A stretch of DNA of 63,998 bases from Saccharopolyspora sp. NFXS83. Lineage in GTDB: Bacteria > Actinomycetota > Actinomycetes > Mycobacteriales > Pseudonocardiaceae. Location: contig NZ_JAPFGB010000037.1 of assembly GCF_026241095.1 (NCBI RefSeq), forward strand, positions 1 through 63,998, in the 5' to 3' direction. Below are positions 10,331 to 13,749 of this stretch, in pieces (within the stretch, counting starts at the first letter, position 1; every line of letters starts with the position of its first letter). The translations under genes were made by a program, and so were the position numbers. Below the pieces are notes generated by a model, which did no database searches, was not told the origin of the DNA, and saw only the letters and a list, made by a program, of their open reading frames with translations.

Positions 10331-10813
10331 TCAGTGCTGGGTGCCCGCCGCGTCGGAGAGCATCCGCAGCGCGCTGATCAGGCCGTCGATCAGTTCGCCT
10401 TCCTTGAAGGAGGCGACCATGGTCATCAAGGCCAGCTGGCAGCTGCGGTCGGGCACGCGGCGCTTCGACTCCGCGCCGGTGACGATCTCCACGGCGCGCT
10501 GCTGCGGGGACACCGCCAGCAGCACCCCCTCCTCGGCGCGCGCGCCCAGGTTGGCGTGCAGCGCCGCCGCGGACTCGCGGGTCTGCTCGCCGAGGTCGCC
10601 GAGGTAGATCGCGAACTCCAGGCCGGTGCTGCGGCTGGAGAGCGTGAGCGCCTCGTCGAGCCGGGCGAGCTGGCCGGTGCTGAACGGCAGGTGCCGCGCT
10701 TGCGGCTTGACCCGGCGGGCGATGGAGAGCCGCCCGGTCGCCGTCACGGCCTCGCCCGCCGCCAGCTCCTGCTCATCGGACCGGCTCACGCCGGTGATCT
10801 CACCAGTTCCCAC
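10331..10813 (-). CDS. DUF5130 family protein (Rv2468c-like)
   Basis: The 160-residue protein has an N-terminal GEAVTATGRLSIARRVKPQARHL segment, then a TPM-like region with EFAIYLGDLGEQTRESAAALHANLGARAEEGVLLAVSPQQRAVEIVTG and a C-terminal helix ALMTMVASFKEGELIDGLISALRML. This is the actinobacterial DUF5130 family, function unknown. The GTG start at 10813 follows GGGGAGG and overlaps the end of the upstream small membrane gene by 14 bases, so the two are coupled. Confidence 0.75.
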   Translation of the reverse strand: MGTGEITGVSRSDEQELAAGEAVTATGRLSIARRVKPQARHLPFSTGQLARLDEALTLSSRSTGLEFAIYLGDLGEQTRESAAALHANLGARAEEGVLLAVSPQQRAVEIVTGAESKRRVPDRSCQLALMTMVASFKEGELIDGLISALRMLSDAAGTQH

Positions 10814-11075
10814 GTGCGCCTCCCCGGTCGGTGCTGTGCGTGTGCTCGACGGCGTCGGACGCGGTCTCGGACGAGTCCAGGTCGCCGGGCGGAGCAGTGC
10901 TCACGCCTGCCGGGTTGGCAACCCAGAACACGGGCGCGAACTCCCAGTCCTGGCCTGCGCGATAACGGGTACGGGTCAGGCTCGACCGGAAGGCGATCAC
11001 CGTGACCAGGAGGTACACGGCCGCTGGGATCACCGCCAGCACGAGGAAGGTCTCCACCACAGTCACGCCCAGCAC
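10800..11075 (-). CDS. ctaJ: Small membrane protein, probable aa3-type cytochrome oxidase subunit CtaJ
   Basis: The 91-residue protein has one N-terminal membrane helix (VVETFLVLAVIPAAVYLLVTVIAF), then YRAGQDWEFAPVFWVANP and an ending RGGARGNW. I recall this single-span layout with a GGARGNW tail from proteins annotated as CtaJ, an accessory subunit of the actinobacterial bc1-aa3 supercomplex. It has no other oxidase genes beside it. Coupled to the DUF5130 gene by overlap. The name rests on remembered sequence features, so treat it as probable. Confidence 0.55.
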   Translation of the reverse strand: MLGVTVVETFLVLAVIPAAVYLLVTVIAFRSSLTRTRYRAGQDWEFAPVFWVANPAGVSTAPPGDLDSSETASDAVEHTHSTDRGGARGNW

Positions 11076-11927
11076 GGTAGCCGATCACGCCGCCGCGTGG
11101 GATGACACCACGGCGACCGGTCGCGTTCCGGTGCGCGGGAGGCCGGTCGGAGCGCTTCTTCGACCCGACGCGGCGGCGACGTCCGCACCTGTGGACAAAC
11201 CTGTGGACAACGCAGCGCAATTCCCGTGCAATTGCGACCGGAGAAACCGCGACTCGCCGGGAAGAATCTTCACCACCTGCGAAAACGCGCGAGGTAGCGG
11301 CGCCGCGGAAACGAACCGACGAGAATGCCCGCCTTTCGCACGCGCGTCGAACCCTGGTCCCGGACCCCGCGAAGCCGCACGAGCAACTGCTCAATTTCTA
11401 GTGAAAATCCCATACCGCCGAACGAGTGAATCGACGCCGCTCTTGACACGAGAGCGGATCCATGCGAGGAAGCTCCGGTCGAGCCCGCCGGCCACCCCAG
11501 GTCGTCCCTGCAGCCCGAAAAGCAGCGCTGAGCTGCGATTTCGCCCCGAAAATCGGCCCCGCCCACACCTCGCGGACACCGGAAGCACCGCTCTCGCCCG
11601 CCGAATCGCACGCGGACGGCGGGAACGGGACACCTGGCTACGACAGGTAGGCAGCACGCATCGTTTCAGTGACTCACCGTGATCATTCTGGCCCTGAGCA
11701 GGACAAGGGCTACCGAAAGTCACTAGTCAAGCGTGTTGCGCCTCACGTAATGTAACTCTTTCAGAGTAATCGCCGCCGCCAAATGGAGCCCATCCAGAAG
11801 GTCGCAGCAGGCGGCAAGTTGGCGGCTTGTTTGAACGCTTCCGCGCTTCTAGTTTTTCACCTGTATGGGTCTTGCATATTTGATCATTAGCCCCATAACT
11901 CGTCTATTGGCCTGCGGGAGGCACACC
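11076..11927. other. Long non-coding stretch upstream of the repeat-protein gene
   Basis: About 850 bases hold no protein-like frame on either strand; the open frames there are rich in Arg/Pro/Ser and lack ribosome binding sites. Notable content: two DnaA-box-like TGTGGACAA sites at 11190-11198 and 11202-11210, and a less GC-rich 3' third (from about 11680) with promoter-like sequences. This gap lies inside a gene block that is otherwise tightly packed. Confidence 0.6.
11827..11900 (+). promoter_or_regulatory. Candidate promoters of the GVRISG repeat gene
   Basis: Two sigma-70-like arrangements lie just upstream of the ATG at 11928. The first is TTGTTT (11827-11832), a 17-base spacer and TAGTTT (11850-11855). 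The second is TTGCAT (11872-11877), a 17-base spacer and ATAACT (11895-11900). Either would give a short leader with the GGGAGG ribosome binding site at 11916-11921. This is pattern matching only. Confidence 0.3.
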
Positions 11928-12914
11928 ATGTCGATCATCGAAACCGCCGCTCAGCGTAATGTTGTCACCAATTCCTTCGATGCGCAGCCCCTTCTTGAAC
12001 ACGGTGCGCACACAGCCAGTGGCGTGCGGATCAGCGGCGGCCATCGCGGCGTGCGGATCAGCGGTACCGACCGCGGTGTGCGGATCAGCGGCGAGCAGCG
12101 CGGAGTCCGCATCAGCGCGCAGGCAGGCGTCCGGATCAGCGGCCGGCAGGGCGTGCGGATCAGTTCCCTTGATCGAGGTGTCCGGATCAGCGGCGCGGAC
12201 AGGGGTGTTCGCATCAGCGGTGACCAGCGCGGCGTGCGGATCAGCGGCCAGGAACGCGGAGTCCGGATCAGCGGGCAGAAGCACGGCGTGCGGATCAGCG
12301 GCGAGGACCGCGGAGTCCGCATCAGCGGCACCGAGCGCGGCGTCCGCATCAGCGGCGACCAGCGCGGAGTCCGCATCAGCGGCGAGCACGGGCCGAACAG
12401 CCCCGTCGGGCGTCACGGAGTCCGCATCAGCTCGCGACACGGCGTCGGCATCAGCGGGCAGGAACGCGGAGTCCGGATCAGCGGTGACCAGCGCGGCGTC
12501 CGCATCAGCGGTCAGGAAAGCGGCGTCCGCATCAGCGGCGAGCACGGGCCGAACAGCCCTGTCTCGCATCACGGAGTCCGCATCAGCGGGCACGACCGCG
12601 GGGTGCGGATCAGCGGTGAGCAGCGCGGCGTGCGCATCAGCTGCGCGGACCGCGGAGTCCGGATCAGCGGGCGGCACGGCGTGCGCATCAGCGGTACCGG
12701 ACGCGGTGTGCGGATCAGCGGCAACCAGCGCGGCGTGCGGATCAGCGGCGAAGACCGAGGCGTCCGCATCAGCGGGCAGGAACGCGGGGTTCGGATCAGC
12801 GGTGACCAGCGCGGAGTCCGCATCAGCGGGCAGGCCGGAGTCCGCATCAGCGGGCAGGAACGCGGCGTGCGCATCAGTGGGCGCAGTGCCGATCAGCTCG
12901 CCGCGGTGGCCTGA
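11928..12914 (+). CDS. Tandem GVRISG nonapeptide repeat protein, unknown family
   Basis: The start is the ATG at 11928, seven bases after GGGAGG. The 328-residue protein has a 31-residue leader (MSIIETAAQRNVVTNSFDAQ, then PLLEHGAHTAS), 31 repeats of GVRISGxxR, and a short tail RSADQLAAVA. Twenty-three repeats are 9 residues, five are 8, and two (14 and 19) carry an 8-residue insert with GEHGPNSPV; the last merges into the tail. GVRIS is nearly invariant; positions 7-8 are mostly D/E/Q. There is no aromatic residue in the repeats and a single Cys. About two Arg and one acid per repeat make it strongly basic. All length changes are multiples of three, and Val and Arg codons vary at third positions, which supports this frame. 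Alternating V and I suggest short beta strands with glycine turns, so a beta-solenoid or fibre is plausible. No signal peptide or modifying enzyme is seen. Function is unknown; I know no described family like it. Confidence 0.8.
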   Translation: MSIIETAAQRNVVTNSFDAQPLLEHGAHTASGVRISGGHRGVRISGTDRGVRISGEQRGVRISAQAGVRISGRQGVRISSLDRGVRISGADRGVRISGDQRGVRISGQERGVRISGQKHGVRISGEDRGVRISGTERGVRISGDQRGVRISGEHGPNSPVGRHGVRISSRHGVGISGQERGVRISGDQRGVRISGQESGVRISGEHGPNSPVSHHGVRISGHDRGVRISGEQRGVRISCADRGVRISGRHGVRISGTGRGVRISGNQRGVRISGEDRGVRISGQERGVRISGDQRGVRISGQAGVRISGQERGVRISGRSADQLAAVA

Positions 12915-12930: not shown

Positions 12931-13560
12931 TCACGCCGCGGACTCGCCCAGGTAGGGCAGCCACAGCGGATCGGTCTCGGACAAACCCGCGATCAGCCGC
13001 CAGTGCCTGCCGCGCGGCGCGTGCGGGGCCACCGGCAGCTGCCAGCCGAGTTCGCTGAGCGTCTTGTCGGCCTTGCGGTGGTTGCACTTGGTGCAGCACG
13101 CCACGCAGTTCTCCCACGCGTGCGGCCCGCCTCGGCTGCGGGGCACCACGTGATCGATCGTCTCGGCTCGAACGCCGCAGTACACGCAGCGATGCCCGTC
13201 GCGGTGCATCAACGCGGAGCGGGTGAGCGGAACGCGTCCCCGGTACGGAACCCGTACGAAGCTGCTCAGCCGGATCACCGAGGGCACTTCGTGGCTGCTC
13301 GTCGCCGAGTGCAGCGTCATGCCCGCCGAGTCTCCGTGGACGACCTCCGCCTTGCCGCAGACCAGCAGCACGATCGCCCTGCGCAGCGGAAGCGCGGTCA
13401 GCGGTTCGAAGGTCGTGTTGAGCAACAGCACCCGCCGCTTGCGCCACGGGGGTACCGGATCACCCGACTGCACGCAGTGCTGCGCCGGTGCCTGGCACAG
13501 CGCCGCCCGAGACGCGAGCCCCGTGGCCGCGCCTGTCCGAGTCGGTATTCGGTCGTGCAC
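12931..13560 (-). CDS. HNH endonuclease family protein
   Basis: The core matches the widespread actinobacterial HNH protein: VLLLNTTFEPLTALPLRRAI, VCGKAEVVH, VPSVIRLSSFVRVPYRGRVPL, then HRCVYCG, IDHVVPRSRGG, ENCVACCTKCNHRKADK, giving the two Cys-x2-Cys zinc pairs and the H...N...H active site. The GTG at 13560 has GGTGGAGG upstream and is preferred to a GTG at 13608. It gives an N-terminal extension of about 45 residues that is not conserved in my memory of the family. Its biological role (repair or DNA processing) is unknown. It converges on the GVRISG gene with 16 bases between stops. Confidence 0.8.
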   Translation of the reverse strand: MHDRIPTRTGAATGLASRAALCQAPAQHCVQSGDPVPPWRKRRVLLLNTTFEPLTALPLRRAIVLLVCGKAEVVHGDSAGMTLHSATSSHEVPSVIRLSSFVRVPYRGRVPLTRSALMHRDGHRCVYCGVRAETIDHVVPRSRGGPHAWENCVACCTKCNHRKADKTLSELGWQLPVAPHAPRGRHWRLIAGLSETDPLWLPYLGESAA

Positions 13561-13749
13561 GCGACCACCTCCACCGGTTGGCAAGAACCAGTCGACCACA
13601 ATCGACACCCCGAACGCACGTGTGATTCACCACGTGCTAGTCACCCGCGCCGCGGTACGAACCCGAGGTCGCGACGGTCCGGGAGAGGTCGATGAGCCGA
13701 CCGGCACCACTGGCGTCGATCGTATGGGCTCCGGTGTTGATCGTTCAGG

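Follow-up and report, generated by a model that had tools for sequence, protein, structure and literature searches.

Why would a family of antibiotic producers keep, at one fixed spot in most of the genera sampled, a gene whose product repeats the same five residues some thirty times and which is yet nameless in the libraries searched, and what might such a protein do? The gene that raises this question lies at positions 11928–12914 of the forward strand in a 63,998-nucleotide stretch of Saccharopolyspora sp. NFXS83 (contig NZ_JAPFGB010000037.1; the whole stretch is here called the window), where it encodes 328 residues plus a stop (ATG at 11928, stop at 12912–12914). Its product belongs to a previously unnamed family of repeat proteins, found mainly in Pseudonocardiaceae, the family whose members make rifamycin, vancomycin, erythromycin and many other antibiotics. 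Amycolatopsis and its relatives have the gene in one chromosomal position, behind a single, highly conserved promoter. The family joins three features that are seldom seen together: from genus to genus the repeat core changes as a whole, the start of the promoter is extremely conserved and occurs about once per genome, and many members carry an encoded C-terminal tail resembling the tag of transfer-messenger RNA (tmRNA). The promoter element and the degron-like tail are the two strongest of the features found. Of the explanations weighed below, the one we favour, with less than even confidence, is that of a beta-solenoid scaffold that assembles by itself in the cytoplasm and is subject to turnover by ClpXP.

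The repeat gene and its translation

The protein starts with a 31-residue leader (11928–12020), which is not hydrophobic, followed by the repeat array (12021–12878) of 31 cores, 30 GVRIS and one GVGIS, and finally by an Ala-rich tail of 11 residues, GRSADQLAAVA (12879–12911), all on the forward strand. The 30 exact GVRIS cores are spaced by 9 (22 cases), 8 (4) or 17 (3) residues, and TRF reports a 27-bp tandem array of 30.6 copies at 12021–12829. A ribosome binding site, GGGAGG, is seen at 11916–11921 (forward strand), with comparable sites 5′ of homologues. A preliminary description of this DNA had listed the leader, the ATG, the ribosome binding site, a single Cys and repeats devoid of aromatics, all of which the sequence bears out (the only aromatic residue is in the leader). 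It had also spoken of 31 GVRISG nonapeptides; the number of cores stands, whereas a rigid nonamer does not, the unit being mostly of 6 to 10 residues across the family. The longest open reading frame (ORF) called mechanically begins at ATG 11865; 11928 was preferred as the start because the former ATG sits within the conserved promoter element and its T is replaced by C in 86 of 104 loci.

Core units for a codon test were gathered by DNA likeness in any frame, which gave 1762 units from 98 arrays, 12 of them out of frame. In the in-frame units, core mismatches at codon positions 1, 2 and 3 numbered 376, 303 and 3101, and it is this concentration at the third position that marks the gene as protein-coding and translated. 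Synonymous variation with the peptide kept, already noted from the window alone, is real: its 30 identical cores are written in 13 distinct DNA versions.

Promoter and conserved element

Upstream of the gene, TTGTTT (11827–11832) and TAGTTT (11850–11855) are separated by a 17-base spacer on the forward strand, and the pattern TTGNNN-N17-T[AC]NNTT precedes the repeat gene in 102 of the 104 loci, running into TTTTCACCTRTAYGGRYCTTG. The role of 11827–11855 as a promoter is read from this geometry and from its conservation, since a strict sigma-70 scan makes no call there. A conserved single-copy element, TTTTCACCTGTATGGGTCTTG (11854–11874, forward strand), overlaps both the −10 region and the position at which transcription is expected to begin. 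Promoter and element were first aligned in 14 upstream regions obtained through protein match, before any search by pattern, which therefore cannot have created the element.

Of 297 family genomes, 163 contain the element at one mismatch or fewer, two of them in two copies, and none contains the reversed control pattern; the doubled cases are G149, where the second match carries a mismatch, and G271, with two exact matches, one of them close to the end of a contig. Among 84,980 species the exact element was found in at least 118 stretches, and in 115 of the 118 matches listed a repeat frame of three or more cores comes after it. The three exceptions are a Pedobacter record, an AT-rich record lacking such a frame, and Halopolyspora with two cores. 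The 80 titled stretches among the matches listed belong to ten Pseudonocardiaceae genera, save the Pedobacter record, one Nocardia sp. and the taxonomically unplaced Halopolyspora. In L203 (Halopolyspora algeriensis) and in L120 the promoter element is retained and two cores remain, the picture of an array in decay. Moreover, the element is kept at least partly in 10 of 11 divergent members inspected by eye, the exception being L083.

No second copy at two mismatches or fewer was found in 10 genomes, where sites with three mismatches were scattered and about as frequent as those of the reversed control. Three leaders fold no better than their shuffles, and the single Rfam match falls far below its cut-off; an RNA element was discarded on these grounds. 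It follows that the sequence serves this single gene in cis. A palindromic reading (ACC-GTAC-GGT), made by eye, was dropped, as it is not preserved in all variants. Farther upstream, 260 bases before the start codon, AGTGACTCACC at 11668–11678 bears what we take to be a resemblance to a BldD box; it is not kept in all congeners.

Cores, units and spread of the family

Homologues of the window protein at E ≤ 0.001 were present in 17 of 60 genomes, counting its own and including all five congeners. The dominant core varies by genus (GVRIS, SVRIT, GTRVT, GTRIT, GVRVT, GVRVN, GIRVT, GIRVN, GVRIN, GVRIH and GVRIE), with Arg at the centre of every one seen; His and Glu at position 5 were met once each, in L131 (G015, GVRIH) and L012 (G011, GVRIE). 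Within an array the core is nearly uniform: 1668 of 1741 units are identical to the dominant core of their own array, with a mean purity of 0.96 and a minimum of 0.64 when Arg is not required. Core plus spacer add up mostly to 6, 7, 8, 9 or 10 residues, typically 6 in GTRVT arrays and 8–10 in the others. Sizes range from four repeats in a 31-residue protein to 51 GTRV units in an open frame of 468 residues, the smallest members being L293 (genome G069) and its relative L081 (G102), of about 31 residues with four GVRIN/GVRID repeats and a partly kept promoter element.

The envelope location once suggested for the window protein found no support by a hydropathy measure: an 11-residue stretch of mean hydropathy of at least 1.5 occurs within the first 45 residues of 10 of 104 members, and the window protein is not among them. 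Among listings of open papers, neither the core peptide strings nor repeat proteins of this kind turned up anything relevant, and those on bactofilins in actinobacteria yielded nothing of use.

Sequence libraries were no more eloquent, in line with the first impression of a family without a name. The window protein has no NCBIfam match, and four other members gave matches below cut-off only, one of them none at all. In Pfam, several families of what we assume to be a beta-helix-like fold class match members, with the matches over cut-off changing from one member to the next. DUF3060 (PF11259) scores 23.7 bits against a gathering threshold of 23.1 in the window protein, 22.8 in the longer frame from ATG 11865, and passes its cut-off in the congeners L002, L003 and L006; it is not listed for L004, L057, L059 or 17 members with hexapeptide units. 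We read it as a probable sign of a shared repeat pattern. The VgrG-associated DUF2345 exceeds its gathering threshold of 30.7 bits in L006 (60.0), L057 (65.3) and L059 (37.0); the scores of the window protein (20.5) and of L002, L003 and L004 fall short of it. Assignment to a named family was rejected, as the Pfam matches are inconsistent and some over cut-off are senseless, such as DNA_pol3_beta in L002, L003 and L006.

PHROGs were weak for the window protein and a hexapeptide member and linked L057 to phrog_15773, of unknown function (2.4e-17). PADLOC had no match for the first two and a weak one of L057 to a Type I specificity subunit (E 0.0012), and solved structures gave a single hit, at E 2.5. 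A match of L057 to Bordetella phage BPP-1 was set aside, being antisense to bbp36, and so were the plasmid relatives of the window protein, ten E. coli/Salmonella records at 28–35% identity with mostly adhesin-type annotation, which were read as pattern likeness. As for a phage origin, viral_contigs held no relative of the window protein and no exact copy of the element, other core types not having been scanned there.

The C-terminal tail

One closed member per genome was considered, and these 103 proteins close with AA in 59 cases; the ending is LAA in 44 and LAG in 3, to be compared with 15 AA and 2 LAA ends among 287 other ORFs called mechanically in the window and 16 further stretches. Among the 80 listed named loci, an LAA end is found in 47 of 74 closed members. 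The tmRNA tags themselves end in LAA in 12 of 12 genomes, and in G133 the tag AEPKSQREFALAA stands beside a repeat protein ending in CQSDLSLAA. In the source genome the tag is ADKSQREFALAA, and the window tail, which closes with LAAVA, is akin to the LAA tail that other members carry, without being the same.

An encoded C-terminal Ala-Ala in an actinobacterial protein has a precedent in sigma-AntA of Streptomyces, a sigma factor rather than a repeat protein, in which, according to PMC7142297, the natural Ala-Ala end functions as a ClpXP degron. The likeness goes further here: in some repeat members it covers about the last five residues of the tag encoded by tmRNA (DFALAA as against REFALAA). 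The resemblance of the tails to the tag is plain, and from it we infer turnover by ClpXP, which would remove the protein in the many species with an encoded ssrA-like C-terminus.

A beta-solenoid scaffold as the favoured explanation

In the proposed mechanism a dedicated promoter, with a start region fixed across the family, would drive the gene, and repeats of the form [GS]-[V/T/I]-R-[I/V]-[S/T/N/H/E] plus a short spacer would form parallel beta-strands coiling into an uncapped beta-solenoid. The V, T or I residues at core positions 2 and 4 would face inward, and ladders of Arg (position 3) and of the polar residue (position 5) would face outward; the repeats would keep one core because each strand must stack on its like. 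Lacking caps and any enzyme domain, such solenoids might join by their ends to build a filament or scaffold, presumably in the cytoplasm, and our guess for its cellular task is that of a scaffold or cytoskeleton-like structure. If it proves to be a filament, it would represent a new scaffold tuned by ClpXP.

The beta-solenoid or fibre of the preliminary description remains plausible, and the evidence leans weakly towards it. Both AlphaFold models are solenoids, at a weak pLDDT (predicted local distance difference test) of 62–64, and the beta-helix-like Pfam matches point in the same direction. When arrays with at least nine spacers were pooled, a three-repeat period was clear only in GTRVT arrays, where it spans 18 residues, and in two GTRIT arrays (z 3.5).

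Several observations weigh against this explanation. The two models, whose confidence is low, match different solenoid types and leave the handedness unsettled, and AlphaFold readily builds solenoids from perfect repeats. The period is not distinct in SVRIT arrays (z 3.0, 6.4, 2.7 and 2.6 at lags 1–4) and GVRIS arrays show it weakly (by sequence z 1.0, by length z 2.3); that of the GTRVT arrays could stem from duplication of 54-bp blocks, with related arrays inflating z. Spacers in the family mix 6 to 10 residues; within arrays Arg shows no better conservation than the rest of the core (21, 14, 16, 49 and 12 mismatches at positions 1–5); and a member of 31 residues and four repeats is too short for a solenoid of its own, which is the strongest point in favour of the motif array discussed below, although a designed unit of 18 residues can assemble across chains into a beta-helix, as reported in PMC12081914. 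The bactofilin family PF04519 has no match in the source genome (0 of 1, with 4 of 14 control genomes positive). The tails, finally, follow no universal rule: the window member ends in LAAVA instead of LAA, the LAA tail is absent from many hexapeptide arrays and from Saccharopolyspora-type arrays ending in ...VRIS, and all these members count against such a rule; moreover, LAA members cluster by genus, so the LAA counts are not independent.

Competing explanations

The closest competitor, which we rate as possible but less likely than the scaffold, is a multivalent array of short linear motifs: a disordered chain in which each five-residue core docks separately, as a beta-strand, on one conserved cellular partner, copy number setting the avidity and the degron the dose, as in a sponge or an assembly platform. 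It would account for a core that alone is conserved amid spacers varying in length and sequence, for sizes reaching from four repeats in 31 residues to 51 GTRV units in one open frame, for the Arg of every dominant core and for the degron-like tail. It has no known partner, however, and the three-repeat period of the GTRVT arrays is not expected from it; core changes between genera at positions 1, 2, 4 and 5 would further require a partner that co-evolves. Should it hold, the partner ought to be readable from the Arg core. A multi-copy peptide precursor is doubtful by comparison: here the array would be cut by ClpXP, through its LAA tail, or by another protease into short, near-identical peptides acting as signals or being modified. 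A leader followed by many near-identical units, a genus-specific core that is near-pure within a genome and so resembles a signal code, the LAA tails, and aminopeptidase and prolyl oligopeptidase genes nearby all agree with it. The protease genes look, nevertheless, like part of an old core gene order, and the Pfam scan of ten window neighbours recognised neither a modifying enzyme nor an exporter, a caveat that had been raised from the start as regards modification and that has held. More improbable still is its boldest form, an ssrA-tagged polyprotein diced by ClpXP into many copies of one genus-specific peptide, a private chemical code under a single-copy promoter; if true, such a peptide dispenser would parallel, in bacteria, the signalling peptides made by ClpP.

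Net charge bears on the idea that the Arg ladders bind nucleic acid, polyphosphate or another acidic polymer. With one Arg in nearly every core, the median charge is +27 in GVRIS and +19 in GTRVT members, but it is −2 in the 37 SVRIT members (range −10 to +25), which makes a general charge-driven or nucleic-acid role unlikely, a little more so than the peptide precursor, and weakens the basic face and nucleic-acid binding initially proposed. That the repeat matters as DNA, its reading frame being incidental, might be suggested by a long tandem array beside a strongly conserved DNA element; this is contradicted by codon position 3 holding 3101 of 3780 mismatches in units chosen by DNA likeness, and by V-to-T and S-to-T core changes between genera that break the DNA motif and preserve the peptide pattern, and we give it almost no credit. 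The solenoid scaffold with turnover is the explanation that we favour over the motif array.

Comparison with known systems

With respect to the left-handed beta-helix (LbH), the three-unit period of the GTRVT arrays may correspond to its three-sided coil of 18 residues, model confidence being low. The PROSITE hexapeptide signature [LIV]-[GAED]-x2-[STAV]-x, as quoted in PMC12081914, does not describe the hexapeptide members, since unlike LpxA/GlmU/CcmM-type proteins their V-T-x-G-T-R has T at i+1 instead of G, A, E or D. At E ≤ 1 the hexapeptide Pfam family had no match in the 17 hexapeptide members, and LbH_EIF2B matched four of the 17 weakly, at best with E 0.08. Again unlike LbH proteins, the repeat family carries no catalytic part, and other genera have units of 8–9 residues. 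With right-handed beta-helices (tailspikes, filamentous haemagglutinin, the VgrG-associated DUF2345) the likeness is patchy, different profiles matching different members and mostly over short parts. These systems also differ in that most repeat members lack a hydrophobic leader and that no type VI secretion gene was found among the ten window neighbours scanned with Pfam, the rest of the genome not having been searched for one.

Bactofilins polymerise without nucleotide and have short tails flanking a beta-helix. Their likeness to the repeat family serves as a working analogy only, and the Pfam hits listed for the window protein and for the 17 hexapeptide members do not include PF04519. Gordonia phage BillDoor gp32 (L308:490-993, function unknown) also has units of 8 residues, such as DSVRVSAY and GSTRIEAL, but it is rich in aromatics and its core is not fixed; gp32 is a likely solenoid, and its resemblance to the family is probably convergent.

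Genomic neighbourhood and history of the gene

Gene order, compared across 17 stretches, runs Rv2466c-like, pepN, DUF5130, small protein, repeat gene, HNH, prolyl oligopeptidase, MscS and globin, and the repeat gene or its site was found in this neighbourhood in the window and in 15 of 16 fetched relatives. Among these 17 stretches, clustering of the mechanically called genes groups the repeat ORF in 14 and HNH in 15. The protease genes resemble what we take to be an old core gene order, with Rv2467, Rv2468c and Rv2469c as mycobacterial counterparts. In the window, the conserved left neighbours are the DUF5130 gene (10331–10813, reverse strand) and a gene for a 91-residue protein (10800–11075, reverse strand), which points away from the repeat gene and whose product has an N-terminal hydrophobic stretch and no match in a Pfam scan. 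On the right lies a conserved, convergent HNH endonuclease-like gene (12931–13608, reverse strand).

HNH was also present in 30 of 30 further genomes, and a search beside it revealed divergent repeat members that the protein search had missed. At least one genome with the repeat gene is known for 39 of the 46 family genera sampled, 26 by the element and 13 more beside HNH. In the remaining seven, each inspected in one genome, it was not found beside HNH. The genomes G033 (4.4 kb) and G049 (1.5 kb of flank) were searched over a shorter stretch, which makes absence in them less sure. A tree of HNH was built for 43 genomes, of which 29 carry the repeat gene and 14 lack it; it is the tree of one small gene, and long branches were flagged in it. 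The distribution of the repeat gene on this tree needs three changes, fewer than in any of 500 label shuffles, and fits a history of one gain and two losses.
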